Origin: Methanoculleus formosensis
GTDB lineage: Archaea > Halobacteriota > Methanomicrobia > Methanomicrobiales > Methanoculleaceae
Length of the DNA: 64,000 nucleotides
Direction of reading: 5' to 3'
Assembly (NCBI RefSeq): GCF_025384765.1
Contig: NZ_VHLL01000001.1
Location: 558,001-622,000, forward strand
The notes under the pieces are model-generated. The model saw only the letters and a program-made list of their open reading frames with translations, had not been told where the DNA came from and did not search any database. Of this stretch, positions 14,746 through 26,171 are shown one piece after another; the first letter of the stretch is position 1, and each line of letters starts with the position of its first letter. The translations under genes and the position numbers were made by a program.

Positions 14746-14925
14746 ATGAGCGCTACAGGAGAACAGTATGTCGTCGATGAGCACGGGAACCGGGTCGCGG
14801 TTATTCTCCCTCTCCAGGAGTACGAGCAGCTGCAGGAAGATCTCCATGACCTTGCCGTGGTCGCGGAGCGGCGTGAAGAACCGACCGTAGGGTTCAGTGA
14901 ATTCCGGAAGCGATACGAGCAGTAA
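14746..14925 (+). CDS. Antitoxin of a type II toxin-antitoxin pair (Phd/RelB-like)
   Basis: 59-aa acidic protein starting at ATG 14746 behind gtgaggagaacg. It has the Phd/YefM-like beta start (QYVVDEHGNRVAVILPLQEYEQLQEDL) with an amphipathic second half and charged tail. It overlaps the following toxin gene by one base (taATG), the usual antitoxin-first arrangement. Its predicted role is to bind and neutralise the toxin and to repress the operon. Confidence 0.7.
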   Translation: MSATGEQYVVDEHGNRVAVILPLQEYEQLQEDLHDLAVVAERREEPTVGFSEFRKRYEQ

Positions 14926-15191
14926 TGGCGGGGTACGCGATTCGCGTAAAGGCGAGTGTCGAGAGAGATGTCGCAGTATTGCCGCGTGATAGTGTTCTGC
15001 GTATCTTTCAGAGCATAGACGCTCTATCTGAAAATCCTCTGCCGCATGGTGTACGTAAGTTAAGCGGAGCAGAACACCTCTACCGAACCCAGGTAGGGGA
15101 CTACCGGATTATATATGCCGTGCATCATGAGGAGCGGGAGATTATAATCCTCTATATCCGTCACCGCCGTAGCGCATATCGCGGGTTGTGA
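14925..15191 (+). CDS. RelE/ParE-superfamily toxin
   Basis: 88 aa, basic. The RelE/ParE fold is suggested by MAGYAIRVKASVERDVAVL, LSENPLPHGVRKLSGAEHLYRTQVGDYRIIYAV and the C-terminal IIILYIRHRRSAYRG. The conserved 'K.L.G....YR.R.GDYRI.Y' core and the basic C-terminal residues match mRNA-cleaving RelE members. Co-translation with the antitoxin supports the assignment. The gene appears intact. Confidence 0.75.
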   Translation: MAGYAIRVKASVERDVAVLPRDSVLRIFQSIDALSENPLPHGVRKLSGAEHLYRTQVGDYRIIYAVHHEEREIIILYIRHRRSAYRGL

Positions 15192-16005: not shown

Positions 16006-16770
16006 TCAAACCCCCGGGCGGAGATACTCCACCTTCATCCCCGCTCCGAAGATCCTCTGGTTCTCCGCCCCCCTGATGATCCTCTTCGCGAGTGCAGCAT
16101 CGGTTGCGATAAATCCCGAGAGATCGGAGACGCCGTAGTCGAAGAAGACCGAAGAGAGGGGAGTCCCCGGGCCCACGATCGTCACGCTCTCTGCGTTCTC
16201 CGAGAGTTCGAGGAGCCGCGGCATACTTTTGTCGCCGAGAGCGCCACAGGTCAGGAAGACATAATCGGACTCCGGCAGCAGGTACTCGCAGGCAGAGTAA
16301 GGGTAATCTCCCTCCTCGGGGTCCCACTCAATGATGCTCAGGTCGGAGACGGGGGCGATCAACTTCTCAAGGAACGGGAAATGACCGACAACACAGACTT
16401 TCTTCCCCTTCACAAGATTCTGGGACTTGATGAACGGGTCTTTCAGCCGTTCTTCGACCCGTTTCTTCTCTGCAACCTCGATCCCCGCCCTCCTGGCGGT
16501 CTCCGGGTGATTGTACCACGCGTTGATCGCCGCGTTGCCGATCGATGCCTCCCAGAAGTTCCAGGACTTCACACACCCCGCCACCTCTTTCAACGGTTTC
16601 CCGATCCTGTTCTCAGTCATCATCGGGGCGCGCTGGATATAATAACGGTATCCGGCGATACCGATGCCGCCGTTTGCCTCGACATACGTCAGTTCCCCGC
16701 CCAGGACCATATCTTCAACGACAATGTCGTCGGGGATCCCTTCGATTAACGCATCGTATAATTCCCACAT
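16006..16770 (-). CDS. DUF364-type putative heavy-metal-chelation protein
   Basis: 254-aa soluble protein. The N-terminal part resembles DUF4213 and the C-terminal part DUF364, with a Rossmann-like segment KVCVVGHFPFLEKL, EWDPEEGDYPYSACEYLLPESDYVFLT and a late TIVGPGTPLSSVFFDYGV. Pfam describes the family as a putative heavy-metal chelation domain. It begins 1 bp after the stop of the ABC ATPase gene, and the GTPase is immediately upstream of that. The three genes lie just downstream of the mtr operon. A role in handling a metal cofactor (cobalt, nickel or corrinoid) is an inference. Confidence 0.75.
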   Translation of the reverse strand: MWELYDALIEGIPDDIVVEDMVLGGELTYVEANGGIGIAGYRYYIQRAPMMTENRIGKPLKEVAGCVKSWNFWEASIGNAAINAWYNHPETARRAGIEVAEKKRVEERLKDPFIKSQNLVKGKKVCVVGHFPFLEKLIAPVSDLSIIEWDPEEGDYPYSACEYLLPESDYVFLTCGALGDKSMPRLLELSENAESVTIVGPGTPLSSVFFDYGVSDLSGFIATDAALAKRIIRGAENQRIFGAGMKVEYLRPGV

Positions 16771-16771
16771 A

Positions 16772-17806
16772 CTATCTCTCCTGAAATTCCGGAATGCTCT
16801 CTTCCGTAACGATCTCTCCTCTCCGGAGCTGGTTGCGGATATTGAGGAGGGCAGAATCGATCGCCTCGATCTTATGCAGCGTCTGCTCCTCTTCTGCGGT
16901 CGTCTCGATCACTTTTGCCACGCCTCCATTCTTGATGACGATCCTTTTATCGGCACGGAGGGCAAGAAGCGGGTCGTGCGTTGACATGAGGACGATCTTC
17001 TCGTTGCCGACGAGGATCTCGATCGCCTCCCGCCGGTCGATTCCTGCATTCTCCAGCTCGTCGATGAGGATGATCGGGGATGAACTCAAGAGAGCGGTGT
17101 CGGCGATCATCAGCGACCGCGACTGCCCCCCGGAGAGCTGGGTGACTTTCGTATCGAGCGTGAACTTCTCCCCTGCCAGCGAATTGGCAACCGCAAAACA
17201 CTTCTCCACAACCGCGGCAGAGTCCGGGATCATCCGGCTTTTCGCATGCATCTCCAGAAATTCCTGCACCGTCAGGTCCATGACGAAGTTCATGTTCTGC
17301 GAGAGCTGGGCTACCAGCTTCCCCCCGGTGGAGAACCTCTTATCGAGATCCGGGACTGACCCGTTGATGAGGATCTGTCGTGCAGTCGGGGTGTCGCGCT
17401 GGGCAAGACATTCGATATCCTCAAGCAACCTGCTCTTTCCCGAGCCGGTGGGACCGACTATGCTCACGACCTCGCCGGGTGTCACCGTCAGTTCGAGCAT
17501 CTCGGGCCTCCCCGTCTTGTCCCGTCCGCCGAGGATCGTGATGGAGGAGATCGTCTCGATAGATTCCTCCATTCGGGTGAACGCTTCAAGAAATGCGCTG
17601 AAGTGGAATATGACCTCCTCGCGGTCAAGCCCGAACTCCTCAAGCATATCCTCATCGACGTCTTCCAGGATCTCAGGGAGCGTCTTTGTCTCATCAACCC
17701 CGACCAGCCGTATGTTGGCGAGGTAATCGACCGCAAGAGGGTAACGGCGAAGGATATCGCCGATAGGCACCGACGAGACCTCTGCAACATAGTCAGGGGC
17801 TTTCAT
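16772..17806 (-). CDS. Soluble ABC ATPase with N-terminal ScdA_N/DUF1858-like domain
   Basis: 344 aa with no membrane partner nearby. Residues about 12-75 (VPIGDILRRYPLAVDYL, KTLPEILEDVDEDMLEEFGL) resemble the ScdA_N/DUF1858 helical domain but lack its CC pair. The ATPase follows: Walker A GPTGSGKSRLL at about 118, signature LSGGQSRSLMIAD, Walker B IILIDELENAG, H-loop MSTHDPLLAL. I chose ATG 17806, which overlaps the GTPase end by 14 bp. It is probably a non-transport ABC protein that acts with the GTPase and DUF364 protein on a metal cofactor or protein assembly step. Confidence 0.75.
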   Translation of the reverse strand: MKAPDYVAEVSSVPIGDILRRYPLAVDYLANIRLVGVDETKTLPEILEDVDEDMLEEFGLDREEVIFHFSAFLEAFTRMEESIETISSITILGGRDKTGRPEMLELTVTPGEVVSIVGPTGSGKSRLLEDIECLAQRDTPTARQILINGSVPDLDKRFSTGGKLVAQLSQNMNFVMDLTVQEFLEMHAKSRMIPDSAAVVEKCFAVANSLAGEKFTLDTKVTQLSGGQSRSLMIADTALLSSSPIILIDELENAGIDRREAIEILVGNEKIVLMSTHDPLLALRADKRIVIKNGGVAKVIETTAEEEQTLHKIEAIDSALLNIRNQLRRGEIVTEESIPEFQER

Positions 17807-18491
17807 CGTCAAACTCCATCCTTTTGACCATCCCCATCTGGTACATCTCTCCGATGAGGGTCTCGCCGGTGCAGTAGGAACAGATGGCGGCAGGCATCGT
17901 GAACCTGAGTTTACGGTCGCGAAGTGTCCGGATATCCAGTGTATCCTGCCAGTGGCGGGCAAGCATAAACGCTCCCTGGCCGGTGATCCCGTTCACGAAG
18001 AGAACCGTTGCCGATGCATTCACCTCACGGATGTTGAAGGCGAAGACCTCGCGCTCCGCCTGGGAGACCACATCCCCTTTCGTGACAACGACGATATCGG
18101 CATACTTCAGCATCGGGCCGATCTTCCGCGGGGTGTTGATGCCGGAGAGGTTGTCGATGACACAGACCGATAAGATGCCGTTCACGTAGGGCGAGCACCG
18201 GTTGCAGAGCCCTGCGCTCTCCGTGACGAGAACCGACAACCCCTTCTTCATGCCCCATTCGACCGCCCCTTCGACGTTGCTGACGAAATGGTGGTCCGGA
18301 CAGATCTTTCCGGCAAAAGCAGTCTGGTTGGGTATCTTCTGTTCATCGTAGCGCTGGTGGTCGAAGGAGGTGAGCGAGTCGAACTTCACGACGCCCACGC
18401 TCCCCGGGGGCAGCCCGAGAGCTGCGATGGTTTTGAGGATAACAGAGGTCTTCCCCGAAGATGGGGGGCCTGCAACGGTAATCAGCTTCAT
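17793..18491 (-). CDS. HypB/UreG/CobW-like GTPase
   Basis: 232 aa. Walker A GPPSSGKTSV near the N-terminus, a mid-chain TESAGLCNRCSPYVNG with a CxxC pair, VVVTKGDVVSQAE at the G4 position (TKGD rather than NKxD), and a C-terminal ICSYCTGETLIGEMYQMG with another CxxC. This pattern fits SIMIBI-class metallochaperone GTPases. It is the first gene of the three-gene unit with the soluble ABC ATPase and DUF364 protein. The client is unknown; its place beside mtr suggests corrinoid/cobalt, but nickel cannot be excluded. Confidence 0.75.
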   Translation of the reverse strand: MKLITVAGPPSSGKTSVILKTIAALGLPPGSVGVVKFDSLTSFDHQRYDEQKIPNQTAFAGKICPDHHFVSNVEGAVEWGMKKGLSVLVTESAGLCNRCSPYVNGILSVCVIDNLSGINTPRKIGPMLKYADIVVVTKGDVVSQAEREVFAFNIREVNASATVLFVNGITGQGAFMLARHWQDTLDIRTLRDRKLRFTMPAAICSYCTGETLIGEMYQMGMVKRMEFDDESP

Positions 18492-18635: not shown

Positions 18636-19673
18636 TTAGATGAGTTTGAAGAACGGGTGGTTCTCGGTCTTGGGCTCGATTCCCAGATCGCGCACCGCTT
18701 CCAGCACGACGATATCCACGTAGGCCTGTGCGGTGATCATCGCCTCGACGTTCTCGATCGGGCCGTACATGATCAGGTCGGCGCCGAGCGTGCTTGCAAT
18801 CATGTTGCAGCCGATATCGGGTGCAGACCAGGCCGCCTGGCGCATACCGTCCGTACCACCGAGGTAGTGGTGGGTGAGCTGCTCGACGAGGGCATCCTTG
18901 CCTTCGAGACCGGCCAGCTGCTGCGAGGGAGTCTTCTTCGTTCCCTTCCAGCGCTTGAGCCAGGTCCAGGAGACCGTCATGTTGTGGTACGCGCCGCCGG
19001 TGGGGAGACCGTGGATCGCCTTGCAGGCGAGGATCTCACGGTACGAGCCGCCGGAGCCGAGACCGAGCGGGGTTGCCGCGGTGTCAAGGATCGGGCGGGT
19101 GATACCACATTTCTCCGCGATCTCGAGCATCCCGAGTTCCTGTCCGGCAACGCCGCCCTCGACCAGGACCTTCTCACGGCCGGCAACCGACGGGTCGCCG
19201 GGGTTGAAAGCGAGGACGATGGCTGCGTTCACATCGCTCTTGGCGAGAGCCTCGATGTTCTCGGGCAGGATCGAGCCGTTGATCGAGTTGTAGATCGCGC
19301 GGTCCGCGATGCCGGCCTCGGTGACGTATTTGCACGCGTGTGCCAGCGCCGTCGGGACGGATGAGTCCATCAGGAATGCGGTCTTGTCGTCGATGCTGCA
19401 GAACCAGTCGATGTAGCTCTCGAAGGCCTCAGGGAACTCCGCGATGATCTGGATGAAGTGCGGAATGCCCGTGATATCCGAGAGTTCCTGGCAGCGGTTC
19501 CAGAGCCCTTCTGCTTTTATCTTGTCGATCTTTCCAGTGTGGTCATCCAGAACAACCTCGTGCTTGTTGTAGAAGATGGATGCACCGAGCACGGACGGGT
19601 ATTCTCCAGGCTGCCCGCCGATCATGGTACCGTTGAAGTCGTGTACCGTCTGCTCTTTTTCGAACTTGAACAT
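18636..19673 (-). CDS. mtrH: Tetrahydromethanopterin S-methyltransferase subunit H
   Basis: 345 aa. MtrH is the peripheral subunit that transfers the methyl group from methyl-tetrahydromethanopterin to the Co(I) corrinoid of MtrA. It is recognised from MFKFEKEQTVHDFNGTMIGG at the N-terminus, and from NAAIVLAFNPGDPSV and LDTAATPLGLGSGGSYREI. I chose ATG 19673, preceded by aaaggaggt. It is the last gene of the mtr operon and overlaps no neighbour; its SD lies at the end of the MtrA-MtrG fusion gene. Confidence 0.95.
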   Translation of the reverse strand: MFKFEKEQTVHDFNGTMIGGQPGEYPSVLGASIFYNKHEVVLDDHTGKIDKIKAEGLWNRCQELSDITGIPHFIQIIAEFPEAFESYIDWFCSIDDKTAFLMDSSVPTALAHACKYVTEAGIADRAIYNSINGSILPENIEALAKSDVNAAIVLAFNPGDPSVAGREKVLVEGGVAGQELGMLEIAEKCGITRPILDTAATPLGLGSGGSYREILACKAIHGLPTGGAYHNMTVSWTWLKRWKGTKKTPSQQLAGLEGKDALVEQLTHHYLGGTDGMRQAAWSAPDIGCNMIASTLGADLIMYGPIENVEAMITAQAYVDIVVLEAVRDLGIEPKTENHPFFKLI

Positions 19674-19689: not shown

Positions 19690-20427
19690 TTACAGGTACC
19701 CAACCAATTTGGGCAGTAATACCAACAACATCATGAATACAATCAAACCTGCGACCAGTCCATACAGGATGCCGATATCGCGCCCGACTTTCCTTCCGAC
19801 GCGCTGGGCGATCTCTGCATCGACGAACTCGATCCTCTCCTCGATGGCGTTGAGCCGTTCTTCGATCTCAAGGAACTGCGGGTTTGCTCCTGCGACGGCA
19901 ACTTCCGCCGCACCGTCCCCTTCTTTGACCTCGACGACCATGGGCTCTGCGCCGAACGCACCGGGGTCTTTGGCCTTGAGTTCATCGATCTTGGCCTTGA
20001 TGGTGCCCATGTCCTCGCTTTCCATGATGTTGACCATCTCGACCTGGTCCTGGAAGCGCTTGATGGCTTCGTCGGAGAGGTTCTCGATGAACGCGATGGC
20101 TCCCTGGGCGCCGACGATCTTCCCGCCGGCGACGCCGCCTTCGTGCAGAGCCATGAAGCTCTGTCCGGAGAGGTGGCCCTTGACCTCCGTTCCGCAACAG
20201 AGGATGAACCTGATGTTGGGGTTGGAGATGACGTTCGCGATGATCTTCTCAAGGCCGAGGTTCTCGGTCTTACAGGACCCGGCGATTGCCGCTCCGGCAT
20301 CGCAGATGCCCTGCTCGTCGAGGTGGGATCCCATGGTGACGACAGCGACGCAACTCTGTGCATCTCCCGTGTGGAAGTCGCCCTGAATAATCGGCCATCC
20401 GCTGGCCGGTGATTTCTTCTCAGCCAT
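19690..20427 (-). CDS. mtrG: MtrA-MtrG fusion: second copy of the MtrA corrinoid domain joined to MtrG
   Basis: 245 aa. Residues 1 to about 168 are the MtrA cytoplasmic corrinoid domain, identical to the MtrA at 20644-21369 apart from residue 2; the corrinoid-site segment [18 protein letters not shown] (His85) is retained. After a short linker, residues about 183-245 are Mtr[36 protein letters not shown] and a membrane helix. It sits where mtrG lies in the canonical mtrEDCBAFGH order, and no separate mtrG is present. About 500 bp are nearly identical to mtrA, pointing to recent duplication or gene conversion. The complex may carry two corrinoid domains per protomer set. Confidence 0.9.
19925..20427 (-). 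repeat. 503-bp duplicated mtrA segment, copy in the mtrG fusion
   Basis: Aligned with 20867-21369 at a constant offset of 942 bp. By eye only two base differences are seen (at 19946 region c/t and 20423 g/a on the plus strand). Identity stops abruptly at the linker to the MtrG part. Confidence 0.9.
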
Positions 20428-20428
20428 G

Positions 20429-20638
20429 TTAGATCGCCCCCACCATCAGTGCCGGGACCACGATCAGGAGTAAGACTACAAGGAGTCCGATTGTGAACCC
20501 GACGATTCCCTTGCCCATGATACCGGATTCGAGTTTGGTCGTGCGGGCAAGGATCTGTGCCTTGTACCGGATGGAGCTCATCATGCCGTTGATTGCCGTC
20601 ATCCGGATGGGGCCTGCCTGTGTAACTTCTTCTGCCAT
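20429..20638 (-). CDS. mtrF: Tetrahydromethanopterin S-methyltransferase subunit F
   Basis: 69-aa single-span membrane subunit. The family pattern is visible: [33 protein letters not shown] and a C-terminal helix [19 protein letters not shown]. It lies in canonical position between mtrA and the mtrG-type gene, with gaps of 5 bp and 1 bp. Confidence 0.92.
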
Positions 20639-20643
20639 TTATC

Positions 20644-21369
20644 TCACCCCAGCAGGATGAACCCCAGAATCACGAACGAGACGATCAGGCCGATCATGAG
20701 GCCCTCAATCTTGCCCGAGTAGACGCCGGCGGCAAACTTGTTACGGTACCCGATGTCGGTGACCATCCGCTCGATGATCTTCATCCGTGCGTGTATCAGT
20801 GCCAGTTCACCGGAGAGCGGCTGTACTTCACCAGTCGCTTCCTCTGCGCCGGCACCGTCCTCTTCCTTGACCTCGACGACCATGGGTTCTGCGCCGAACG
20901 CACCGGGGTCTTTGGCCTTGAGTTCATCGATCTTGGCCTTGATGGTGCCCATGTCCTCGCTTTCCATGATGTTGACCATCTCGACCTGGTCCTGGAAGCG
21001 CTTGATGGCTTCGTCGGAGAGGTTCTCGATGAACGCGATGGCTCCCTGGGCGCCGACGATCTTCCCGCCGGCGACGCCGCCTTCGTGCAGAGCCATGAAG
21101 CTCTGTCCGGAGAGGTGGCCCTTGACCTCCGTTCCGCAACAGAGGATGAACCTGATGTTGGGGTTGGAGATGACGTTCGCGATGATCTTCTCAAGGCCGA
21201 GGTTCTCGGTCTTACAGGACCCGGCGATTGCCGCTCCGGCATCGCAGATGCCCTGCTCGTCGAGGTGGGATCCCATGGTGACGACAGCGACGCAACTCTG
21301 TGCATCTCCCGTGTGGAAGTCGCCCTGAATAATCGGCCATCCGCTGGCCGGTGATTTCTTCTCAACCAT
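20644..21369 (-). CDS. mtrA: Tetrahydromethanopterin S-methyltransferase subunit A (corrinoid protein)
   Basis: 241 aa. MtrA carries the corrinoid that shuttles the methyl group between MtrH and coenzyme M. The cytoplasmic domain holds [20 protein letters not shown], with the His of the cobalt site region. The tail has a coiled segment ([25 protein letters not shown]) and one membrane helix. I chose ATG 21369, with gaggtg about 6 bp upstream, over a GTG at 21378. Its first 500 bp are almost identical to the downstream MtrA-MtrG fusion gene. Confidence 0.95.
20867..21369 (-). repeat. 503-bp duplicated mtrA segment, copy in mtrA itself
   Basis: Partner of 19925-20427. The identity includes the start codon and synonymous sites, which argues for recent conversion rather than protein-level selection. 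Confidence 0.9.
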
Positions 21370-21379
21370 GTTCTTCACC

Positions 21380-21664
21380 TCACAGCAGTCCTAATACGAC
21401 GACACCGGCAATCAGAAGGCCGACTGCCATGCCATACCAGAATGCGGTCACGCCTCCGGCGGTGTTGAGAACACCCTCCCTGTTCGGGAATGATGCCAGG
21501 AAGTTGCCCTCTCCGGAGAGCATACCGACCAGGTCGTCGGTGATCTTCTCGAGTTCCGCTACCTGTTCGAGCACGGGGGTGTAGGAGACACCGGCAGTGG
21601 TGACGATTCCGACCATCGGGTCGACAACCAGGCCGTACTCGGGCAGCACCTGAATGTACGCCAT
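21380..21664 (-). CDS. mtrB: Tetrahydromethanopterin S-methyltransferase subunit B
   Basis: 94 aa with one C-terminal membrane helix ([19 protein letters not shown]). The N-terminal [19 protein letters not shown] is characteristic of MtrB. It directly abuts mtrC upstream (0 bp) and mtrA downstream. Confidence 0.93.
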
Positions 21665-22516
21665 TTAGGCACCTCCCTTGGGCTCAAGGATCGGCTGTGC
21701 GTCGAGCCATGCGTAGGCGTCACGCTGCGAGAGCTCGATGTACTTCTTGTAGGTGTAGAGCCACCCGACGATCGAGACCACCAGTGAGATGAGAGCGGCA
21801 TACATGCCGATGAACGCGAACGAGATGATCGCGATGGGGATCATCGAGAGGAACCCGCACTCCGCGGCGAGCATGAGCGTCCTGTCCTGCTGCTCCCCCG
21901 GCCCGAGACAGGCGTTGAAGGAGTGCTGGATGGCGATAGCGCCGAGCATGAAGATCACGGCGATGATGCTGCCGCCGATGAGCGAGAACTCGTAGCTCTG
22001 CACGATGAATCCGAGGATCGCGATCTCGCCGGTGATCATGCCGAGGAACTCAAACGTTCCGCAGGCCATCGCCGAGAGACCGAGAATGGTCATTGCGCCG
22101 ACGATCGCGAGTTCGATCAGCGAGACGACCATGACGGGGATGTCCATCCGGACAACGGCGTTCGCCATCAGTCCGGCGACCGCGCCGATGATTGCGGCGA
22201 TGATGATCGTCACGATGGGTGCGAAGGGGCCGGTCGTGGCTCCGAAGAGCGCAGCAACGACACCGGACCCGAGGGCGATCATACCTGCCGACGGGACACC
22301 GGTACCGAGACCGTAGCTGCAGAGGTGCTTGATCGTGTCGGTGCCCCAGAGGAGCGCGACTACGGCGGCAAGCCCACCGAAGAACGAGAAGTACTCGGTG
22401 CCGGTGATAGTGTTCAGGTATGTCAGGTAAATCAGGACGAGCGATCCCACGAGGCCGTAGATCAGGATCTGGTTGTGCGGGATGCCGCCTGCTCCGACTT
22501 CAACTTTTACTGACAT
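21665..22516 (-). CDS. mtrC: Tetrahydromethanopterin S-methyltransferase subunit C
   Basis: 283-aa integral membrane subunit of the sodium-pumping methyltransferase complex. It has multiple helices, including the MtrC segments HNQILIYGLVGSLVLIYLTYL, GTDTIKHLCSYGLGTGVPS and HSFNACLGPGEQQDRT. Methyl transfer to coenzyme M is coupled to Na+ export by MtrC, D and E. It abuts mtrD and mtrB without gaps. Confidence 0.94.
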   Translation of the reverse strand: MSVKVEVGAGGIPHNQILIYGLVGSLVLIYLTYLNTITGTEYFSFFGGLAAVVALLWGTDTIKHLCSYGLGTGVPSAGMIALGSGVVAALFGATTGPFAPIVTIIIAAIIGAVAGLMANAVVRMDIPVMVVSLIELAIVGAMTILGLSAMACGTFEFLGMITGEIAILGFIVQSYEFSLIGGSIIAVIFMLGAIAIQHSFNACLGPGEQQDRTLMLAAECGFLSMIPIAIISFAFIGMYAALISLVVSIVGWLYTYKKYIELSQRDAYAWLDAQPILEPKGGA

Positions 22517-23368
22517 TTAGAATACCCCCACCAGTTGGAGGAGCCCGATCGCGAAGATGCCGGTAACGGCGGATGCCACGGCGGCTGCGATGATCGCTCT
22601 CGGGAACCGCTTGAACTTGGGGTCGTGCGGCCCTTCGATCGTACCGGTGATGTTGTATGCCGCAAGCACGGCGTTCACGAGGAACATACCGACCGCGAAG
22701 ATGCCGGCAAGCGAGACGGCGACGGGCGCGATCTGCTCGACCGTGGCGTTCAGGATCACCGGGAGCTGCGCCTGGTAAACGTCGAGAAGCTGGAGGTAGA
22801 TGAGCGTTCCCCCAAGACCTCCGAGTGCGCCGCCGATGACGCCGCCGACCCAGGAGATGAACGGGAGGCCGTGCCCCTCGGTACCCTGGCTCTTGAACTC
22901 GGGGAAGGTGTCGCCCGTGATGGGGTCTTTATCGACCTTACCGGAGGCTGCCGGGATACCCATGCCGAAGACGTAGATGACGTTGACCATCGTACAGGTG
23001 ATCGCCATCAGGAGACCGCCGCCGATCGCACCGCCCGCAAGGGCGACGCCGAATCCAAGCGGGGCGGCCCATGCGCCACCGAAGAGACCGGCAAGGCCGG
23101 CACCGGCCGCAAGCATCGCAACACCGGTCGCGATACCGGGTGCCTGTCCCATTGCAGCGGGAGCACCGCCGACCGGGACGAAGTGAACGCCGAACGCGAT
23201 CAGGACGCCGCCGATGATGATGCCGACGAGCGCGATCAGTCCGGCCATCTGTACGAGTAAGTAAGCGAGCGCAAGCGCTGCTACGATAAGAACGATACCG
23301 ATGACGAGGCCCATTGCCGTCGGGGGTTGGATGCCTCCAGTCTGTTTAGGTCCGCCGAGTGCGCTCAT
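22517..23368 (-). CDS. mtrD: Tetrahydromethanopterin S-methyltransferase subunit D
   Basis: 283-aa polytopic membrane subunit. Family landmarks are ITCTMVNVIYVFGMGIPAASG, DPITGDTFPEFKSQGTEGHG and LPFISWVGGVIGGALGGLGG. It overlaps the mtrE stop by 4 bp and abuts mtrC. Confidence 0.94.
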   Translation of the reverse strand: MSALGGPKQTGGIQPPTAMGLVIGIVLIVAALALAYLLVQMAGLIALVGIIIGGVLIAFGVHFVPVGGAPAAMGQAPGIATGVAMLAAGAGLAGLFGGAWAAPLGFGVALAGGAIGGGLLMAITCTMVNVIYVFGMGIPAASGKVDKDPITGDTFPEFKSQGTEGHGLPFISWVGGVIGGALGGLGGTLIYLQLLDVYQAQLPVILNATVEQIAPVAVSLAGIFAVGMFLVNAVLAAYNITGTIEGPHDPKFKRFPRAIIAAAVASAVTGIFAIGLLQLVGVF

Positions 23369-24270
23369 GACGATGCCTCCTCAGTAGCCTCGGGAGCCGT
23401 GTAGGGCCCGAAGTTCTTCCTTGCCCAGACCTCGATGTAGCGGTCGATGATGGCAAAGACCAGGATGACGACGACACCGACGACGATCGGTCCCCAGATG
23501 TTGAACTCTTCGAAGACCACGGTACGCCAGAGTTCGAAGAAGACGATCAGGCCAAAGCAGATGCCCGAGGCGGGGCCGCCGAGTTTGGCGCTGAAGAAAC
23601 CGTTGTCGAGCGAGTTCCGCTGGCCGGCCTCGGCGTAGCGGACGATGTTACCGGACGCGGAGATCGGAACGCCTGCTCCGAACTTCTGCTCCTGGTACTG
23701 CCGCTCCTTTCCGTAGAACGGGTTACCGGTCGCAGACCCGGCCGCACCGAGCGCGATACCCCAGACGATACCCAGAAGCGGGAGCGGGAAGGGGTGGCCG
23801 AGCGCGCTGATCATAAGGTGACACATCGCGACGGTGGCGAAGATTGCTATGAACGCGTGTGCCATGGTCACGGTCGTCATCGACTTCAAGATGTCAATGT
23901 AGACCGGCTGTCCGAACTTGGCGAGACTTGCAGTACGGCCGAGGTATGCGGTAGTCGCATAGATGCCCTGCACGAAGACCGCGAGAGCACTCCCGAGCAC
24001 GATTGCAAGTATCGGGTTTATCTGCATCGCCATGAAAGCCCAGGCAAGGCCTGCGCCCAGAGCAACCCAGAGGCCGTACGCGGGAGGTTCACCAGCAATT
24101 GCCTTGTTGAATATGCGGTGAATATATCCCATCTGTGGAGCCAGCTGAACCTGTGAGTTCGGGTCACCCTGTGATCCGATGTCAGATTCAACGTCTTCCG
24201 CAGCGCCGGCGACGGTTGCGAGAGCACCTGCCAATGCGGTAATGCCGATGCCAAATACGATCTCTTCCAT
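23365..24270 (-). CDS. mtrE: Tetrahydromethanopterin S-methyltransferase subunit E
   Basis: 301-aa polytopic membrane subunit and first gene of the mtr operon. It has the soluble-loop signatures DIGSQGDPNSQVQLAPQMGY, NPFYGKERQYQEQKFGAGVP and AEAGQRNSLDNGFFSAKLGG. With MtrC and MtrD it forms the Na+-conducting membrane part. The SD ggaggagg lies 9 bp upstream and is partly inside a perfect hairpin (24282-24304). Confidence 0.95.
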   Translation of the reverse strand: MEEIVFGIGITALAGALATVAGAAEDVESDIGSQGDPNSQVQLAPQMGYIHRIFNKAIAGEPPAYGLWVALGAGLAWAFMAMQINPILAIVLGSALAVFVQGIYATTAYLGRTASLAKFGQPVYIDILKSMTTVTMAHAFIAIFATVAMCHLMISALGHPFPLPLLGIVWGIALGAAGSATGNPFYGKERQYQEQKFGAGVPISASGNIVRYAEAGQRNSLDNGFFSAKLGGPASGICFGLIVFFELWRTVVFEEFNIWGPIVVGVVVILVFAIIDRYIEVWARKNFGPYTAPEATEEASS

Positions 24271-24464: not shown

Positions 24465-26171
24465 TTACCGCGCCGGAATGATGAGCGAACGCTCGCCGGC
24501 GGGCATGAACTCGCGGATGGCACCCTTCGCGAACTCGCGGCGGGGCTCGGCGAAGTCGAACTTCAGCGCGGGGTCGGCGAAGCAGATCTTCACCCGCGGG
24601 TCGAAACACCACGCATCGCCGCGGCCGTAGTGGGCGCCGCCGGTGATCGCGGCGTACTCGCCCTGGTGGCCGACGTTCATCGCGTAGTTCGGGTAGTTCG
24701 GACCACGGACCTCGCCGATCGCGCCCTCGTCTCCACGGATGGAGAGGGAGTTCGCGGACCCGCACTGGTCCTGGAGGTCGTAGCCGAAGAAGCCGAGACG
24801 CGACCATCCGTCCTTGTGCAGGAGCATGCAGAGGTACCAGGCGTTCAGGCCGGCGTTGGAGTTGCCGGTCGCGATGGAGGTGGAGAGACCGCAAGCAGCG
24901 GCAAGCACGCCTGCACGCTGGGAACCGCCGAAGTGGTCCTCCATCATGGTCGGGTACTGCTCGTACTGCTCCATGCCGTTGAGGGCGACCTCGGTCGCGA
25001 TGTCGTTGACGATATCGTAGGTCGGCTTGACCTTGTCGGTCGGGCTCGGGTTCTTCCAGTCGACCTTGTACTTGTCCTTGATGTAGTCCATACCGTAGTA
25101 GGTGAACTCATCGAGGATGTTGTCGGTGTAGGCCGCGGTCGCGTACTGCGTGAACCCGACACCGCCGGACATGTAGGAGCCGAGCCAGATCTGGTCGAAC
25201 AGCATGGTTCCGGCACCGACGACCTCAAGGGAGGCCTTCGCGGGGTCGTGGGGGTACTTCCGGTTCGCCTGAATGATATCGCTGAAGAGACCGAAGCCGA
25301 TACCACCGGGCTCGTTCGGGCCGCGGGCACGCCGGGCGGGCAGGTGGGACGCCATCTGGATGACGCCTGCGTGCTTTGCAGCGTAGGAGAGGTCGGCGAC
25401 AGCCGCTTCACCGGCGCACATCCGGTAGGCACCGATGAAGGACATGCCGATCTGCATCGCAGACCACCGGGAGGTCGTTCCACCGTCGCAGGTCCGGGAG
25501 ACCGTGGTCGGGATGTGGATAGCCTGCCAGAGGGACTTTCCTACAGCTGCGGAGAGCGCTTCGGCCTGCTTTGCCGGGAAGAGTTTCTCGACGTCGAGGA
25601 CGAACTGGGGCTCGAGGTCGTCGGCGAGTTCCTGGTCGCCGGTGAAGACCTTGACGTAACAGTCGTCGACGAGGCCGGGGTGGGTCTCGACCATGTGCTC
25701 CTGGACGACGGCCGCGCCGGGCATCGCGTGGTTCAGCACGTGGAGGTACTCGTTGATCGTCTCGGGGGTGACTTCCTTACCGAGACGCTTCTGCAGCGTC
25801 TGGTGAGCGAGGTCCATGTTGACGATGACGGTTCTCCGGATATCGTCCCACATCTGCTGCATCGCAGCGTTGTTGACGAAGTGCAGGTCGTCGCCCTCCA
25901 CGAAGACGCCGGTGCCGGAGACCTCGTAGGTCATCAGCTGGCGCTGGCCGAGCGGGATACCGCCAAGGTGGCAGCGCACGGGGTCGTACATGGAGATGCC
26001 GCGGTCCATCTCGACGGCGCGGCTGGCCTTCACGAACTCCTCCTTGCGGGGGGACTGGTGGTAGCCGTTGAACTTGTAGAACTCGGTCGTCTCGGACTGA
26101 ACGTCCTGGCCCTGGAACTTCTCCTTGAGGGATTTCAGGAAGAGCTTCTGGGTTCTCTCAATCTTTGCCAT
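24465..26171 (-). CDS. mcrA: Methyl-coenzyme M reductase I-type subunit alpha
   Basis: 568 aa. Catalytic subunit that releases methane from methyl-CoM and CoB using F430. Diagnostic regions are present: [20 protein letters not shown] (methyl-His region), [14 protein letters not shown] (methyl-Arg region), [17 protein letters not shown] (thioglycine and the active-site Tyr) and [12 protein letters not shown]. Last gene of the mcrBDCGA operon, 5 bp after mcrG. It has full family length. Confidence 0.98.

Follow-up and report, generated by a model that had tools for sequence, protein, structure and literature searches.

The mtrA–mtrG fusion in the mtr operon of Methanoculleus formosensis: a probable second corrinoid carrier of the Mtr complex throughout the Methanomicrobiales

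In hydrogenotrophic methanogenesis, Mtr is the Na+ pump that conserves energy. The canonical complex, encoded by mtrEDCBAFGH and assembled as Mtr(ABCDEFG)3, is known from the structures 8Q3V and 9QTQ (PMC10998594, PMC12774963); it has a separate MtrG and one corrinoid domain per protomer. The cryo-EM data show that MtrA, B, F and G form a stalk in which all N-termini are cytoplasmic, that the MtrG helices make up the central membrane bundle, and that the corrinoid domain swings on a flexible MtrA linker between MtrH and MtrCDE (PMC10998594, PMC12774963). Wang et al. 2015 (PMC4632066) described a second mtrA of the Methanomicrobiales, mtrA-2b, as an mtrA–mtrG fusion located between mtrF and mtrH. 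They also described an mtrA–mtrF fusion in Methanococcales, and they reported that gene conversion homogenises the MtrA domains of both copies. Later studies, a genome-wide one from 2018 (PMC6053082) and one from 2023 (PMC9982363), repeat or cite mtrA-2b.

The gene studied here lies in a stretch of 64,000 nucleotides from Methanoculleus formosensis (NZ_VHLL01000001.1, positions 558,001 to 622,000), which we call the window. It agrees with mtrA-2b in the taxonomic order of the host, operon place, fusion partner and homogenised MtrA domain, and we see no difference in kind; since Wang et al. 2015 described the fusion, it is already known. The earlier note on this DNA had treated it as an oddity of this genome, which is wrong: it is the ordinary state of the Methanomicrobiales and was published in 2015. 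The gene also resembles mtrA-2a (Methanococcales, Methanocella arvoryzae) and the [AF] fusion of TACK/ANME-1 (PMC4632066, PMC9982363), in that a corrinoid subunit is joined to a small stalk subunit. In those proteins, however, the partner is MtrF and the origin is independent (PMC4632066, PMC9982363), whereas the partner in the window is MtrG. Here MtrF has a gene of its own (20429-20638). The window shares subunits and gene order with the canonical operon and differs from it in that MtrG is fused.

The mtr operon of the window and its fused protein

The operon runs on the minus strand from 24270 to 18636, with the open reading frames in the order mtrE-D-C-B-A-F-[A–G]-H. The segment 19690-21369 holds three of these minus-strand genes, namely mtrA, mtrF and the A–G fusion; the fusion sits between mtrF and mtrH, and an ordinary mtrA-1 lies upstream. 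Confirmation with Pfam and NCBIfam covers mtrB, mtrA, mtrF, the fusion and mtrH.

23365-24270, minus strand: mtrE, assigned by position and hydrophobicity, no profile scan
22517-23368, minus strand: mtrD, assigned by position and hydrophobicity, no profile scan
21665-22516, minus strand: mtrC, assigned by position and hydrophobicity, no profile scan
21380-21664, minus strand: mtrB (PF05440, E 1.1e-30)
20644-21369, minus strand: mtrA (mtrA-1), which carries a membrane tail of its own and runs from the ATG at 21369 to its stop at 20644 (TIGR01111 mtrA, 339.7 bits)
20429-20638, minus strand: mtrF, a separate gene (PF09472, E 2.3e-19)
19690-20427, minus strand: mtrA–mtrG fusion (mtrA-2b), 245 aa (PF04208 and PF04210 above cut-off)
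19924-20421, minus strand: corrinoid domain copy of the fusion, near-identical to that of mtrA (3 differences in 507 nt)
18636-19673, minus strand: mtrH (PF02007, E 1.6e-97)

The gene mcrA (24465-26171, minus strand) lies directly upstream of mtrE, so that the mcr and mtr operons adjoin. On the 3' side of mtrH, co-directional genes at 16006-18491 (minus strand) encode a CobW/HypB/UreG-type GTPase, an ABC-type ATPase and a DUF4213/DUF364 (heavy-metal chelation) protein. A ParE-type toxin gene is found at 14925-15191 on the plus strand (PF05016, E 2.6e-09).

The earlier note had read the gene in the mtrG position as a full MtrA domain, with the His85 region, joined to MtrG, and this reading is borne out. 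Residues 4-173 match MtrA (PF04208, E 3.2e-84) and residues 183-236 match MtrG (PF04210, E 7.1e-23), while the NCBIfam models for mtrA and mtrG both score above cut-off. The layout is a corrinoid domain (aa 1-168), a disordered linker, the MtrG coiled-coil helix and a membrane helix. The fusion aligns over its length to MtrA chains solved by crystallography or cryo-EM, and also to the MtrG chains 9qtq_S and 8q3v_G; its residues 173-235 correspond to residues 4-65 of 9qtq_S, so that nearly the whole of MtrG is retained. A model predicted from 16 rows, of moderate quality (mean pLDDT 69.8) and silent on assembly, has a folded domain, a low-confidence linker and helices at 183-200 and 204-244. 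The cobalt ligand is His85 (His84 in M. marburgensis numbering), and the axial His, the Glu and the GAIxFxEN segment are all present, as judged by the functional MtrA residues in PMC4915002. The claim that mtrG does not stand alone is likewise correct: a profile search of the whole genome gave no stand-alone mtrG, a single MtrG match, which is the fusion, and exactly two MtrA domains.

Occurrence in the Methanomicrobiales

The nearest named relatives of the window are Methanoculleus species (93-95% aa), which places the host within the Methanomicrobiales. Of 199 genomes of this order, 163 gave an MtrG match; almost all of these matches lay in open frames of about 250 aa or in frames interrupted by a contig end. 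A comparison of mtr operons across the order, as the earlier note had proposed, drew on 90 retrieved loci and the window. Of these, 80 combine the A–G fusion with an MtrA that has its tail and with an MtrF that stands alone, and they come from all six sampled families. The counts of 80 include the window and also one locus (L083) that lacks the greater part of its first MtrA domain; the remaining loci run into a contig end, have mtrA in a broken frame or, in one case (L109), lack the upstream mtrA. Outgroup loci from the same phylum have the order A, F, G with a separate mtrG in 30 of 30 cases checked; among the matches listed, the open frames around MtrG in the outgroup reach 143 aa at most. 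The A–G fusion is the normal arrangement of the order Methanomicrobiales.

The near-identical repeat damages draft genomes at the mtr operon. In at least 20 drafts of the order, contigs start or stop within the duplicated domain that immediately precedes mtrG (e.g. L018, L020, L021, L026, L031, L144-L146); because of these breaks, mtrA or mtrG may seem absent or truncated in MAGs. In locus L109 (genome G137, genus g9), positions 1500-2530 carry mtrB, directly after it the A–G fusion, and then mtrH; the tail of mtrA-1 and mtrF are absent. This is most likely a collapse of the repeat by the assembler, with a genuine loss of the DNA between the direct repeats as the lesser possibility. In three further loci, two from Methanoculleus sp. 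UBA303 (L079, L157) and one from Methanogenium cariaci (L171), mtrA-1 is split into two frames with domain and tail apart, which probably reflects sequencing errors.

Conversion and selection between the two corrinoid domains

The first 476 compared nucleotides of the two corrinoid domains in the window are identical, and there are 3 differences in 507. None of the 75 fourfold-degenerate sites differs. Since even the silent sites are equal, selection on the protein alone is insufficient, and copying of one domain by the other explains the identity. The two MtrA domain copies are 99.4% alike, compared with 94.3% to the nearest sampled ortholog. The same holds in the larger sample: over 80 pairs the identity within a genome has a mean of 95.4% and a median of 97.0%, versus 75% between species, and in 63 of 80 no sampled ortholog is as close as the paralog. 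In the nucleotide tree 63 of the 80 pairs are sisters, and the rest group with very close species. Wang et al. 2015 (PMC4632066) had eight pairs; the larger sample reproduces their concerted-evolution result. In 56 pairs with 1-30 differences, these are fewest in the inner domain and most frequent at both ends, as expected if conversion tracts rarely reach the domain ends. The pattern indicates that recurrent gene conversion keeps both domains nearly alike.

In some lineages (L084, L127, L130, L138, L139, L147, L148) the domains have escaped conversion (79-84% nucleotide identity) and purifying selection persists. The 13 diverged pairs have dN values of 0.02-0.10 and dS values of about 0.44-1.6. 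Over all pairs the conserved columns show 79 deviations in one copy and 80 in the other. His85, Glu55, Lys53, Thr54 and Asn65 are retained in both copies, save for one Lys53Met, and no copy with sequence at this position lacks the cobalt-ligating His. At 17 modelled contact positions for MtrH/MtrCDE or ligand positions, no difference between copies was seen in 79 pairs; these sites hardly vary between species either, so that their identity shows constraint and not role. Degeneration of the second copy is unsupported, given the equal deviations at conserved columns and the low dN relative to dS. The rates point to strong purifying selection on both copies where conversion lapsed, a small addition to the published result. 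Selection, the conserved His and the contact data together support two working corrinoid domains per protomer, in line with the earlier note, which had predicted two such domains in one complex.

Three other explanations have to be considered. The fusion could be unreal, the product of an assembler that wrongly stitched two near-identical domains, and the repeat does break or collapse draft assemblies, as it most likely did in L109. However, about 20 of the genomes with the fusion are single contigs and show the same architecture, and it also occurs where the copies have diverged by up to 105 differences, so that such a misassembly is impossible there. These genomes and pairs refute the artefact, and we give it practically no weight. 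The run of 476 identical nucleotides could also be read as the mark of a young duplication within the species or genus instead of an ancient fusion with gene conversion. Against this, operon place, fused partner and linker are common to all six families, several lineages have copies about as distant as orthologs (dS about 1), and a recent origin would demand many repeated identical fusions. We reject a recent duplication on the strength of the order-wide architecture, and what chance is left to it is very small.

A passive role of the fused domain, which would anchor or stabilise MtrG and carry no methyl groups, is somewhat less remote and still improbable. In its favour, literature searches found no biochemical proof of cobamide loading; they returned no proteomics or biochemistry of the fusion, and no protein-level evidence (expression, cobamide loading, co-assembly) in any Methanomicrobiales. 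A passive domain is nevertheless difficult to reconcile with the binding His, the Glu and the contact sites, which are kept even where conversion lapsed, and with the finding that both copies changed equally often at conserved columns.

Proposed place of the fused protein in Mtr

We consider it very probable that mtrA-2b of the Methanomicrobiales is an old duplicate fused to mtrG, which replaces MtrG and provides a second, conversion-homogenised corrinoid carrier. An ancestral mtrA duplicate would have shed its own membrane tail and been linked to mtrG. In the stalk of Mtr(ABCDEFG)3 the fused protein most likely stands in for MtrG, with its helix in the central bundle. Since the N-termini of the stalk are cytoplasmic, a corrinoid domain attached to the MtrG N-terminus lies in the right compartment, where it would serve as a second methyl-cobamide domain, mobile on its flexible linker. 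The linker lengths are equal in both copies, about 14 residues from domain match to tail match. The trimer would then have six corrinoid domains where the canonical one has three, and all six would work with the same MtrH and MtrCDE sites.

We infer that both domains bind cobamide, share one complex and raise the number or local concentration of carriers, not the Na+ per methyl group. The likeliest effect would be twice the methyl carriers per pump. Since the operon has its usual MtrH and pump subunits, an altered Na+ per methyl seems unlikely, and the changed methyl-transfer stoichiometry or Na+ coupling that the earlier note envisaged is speculation. It is conceivable, if rather doubtful, that the complex runs a two-carrier cycle in which loading of one domain at MtrH coincides with discharge of the other at MtrCDE, with faster turnover or tuned Na+ coupling; diverged domains may then be used differently. 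The lineages that have escaped conversion are natural cases in which to search for such a division of labour.

The genetic fact is old, and its structural and kinetic meaning can be tested. Both cryo-EM studies (PMC10998594, PMC12774963) used organisms with one corrinoid domain per protomer; the complex of the Methanomicrobiales should hold twice as many.
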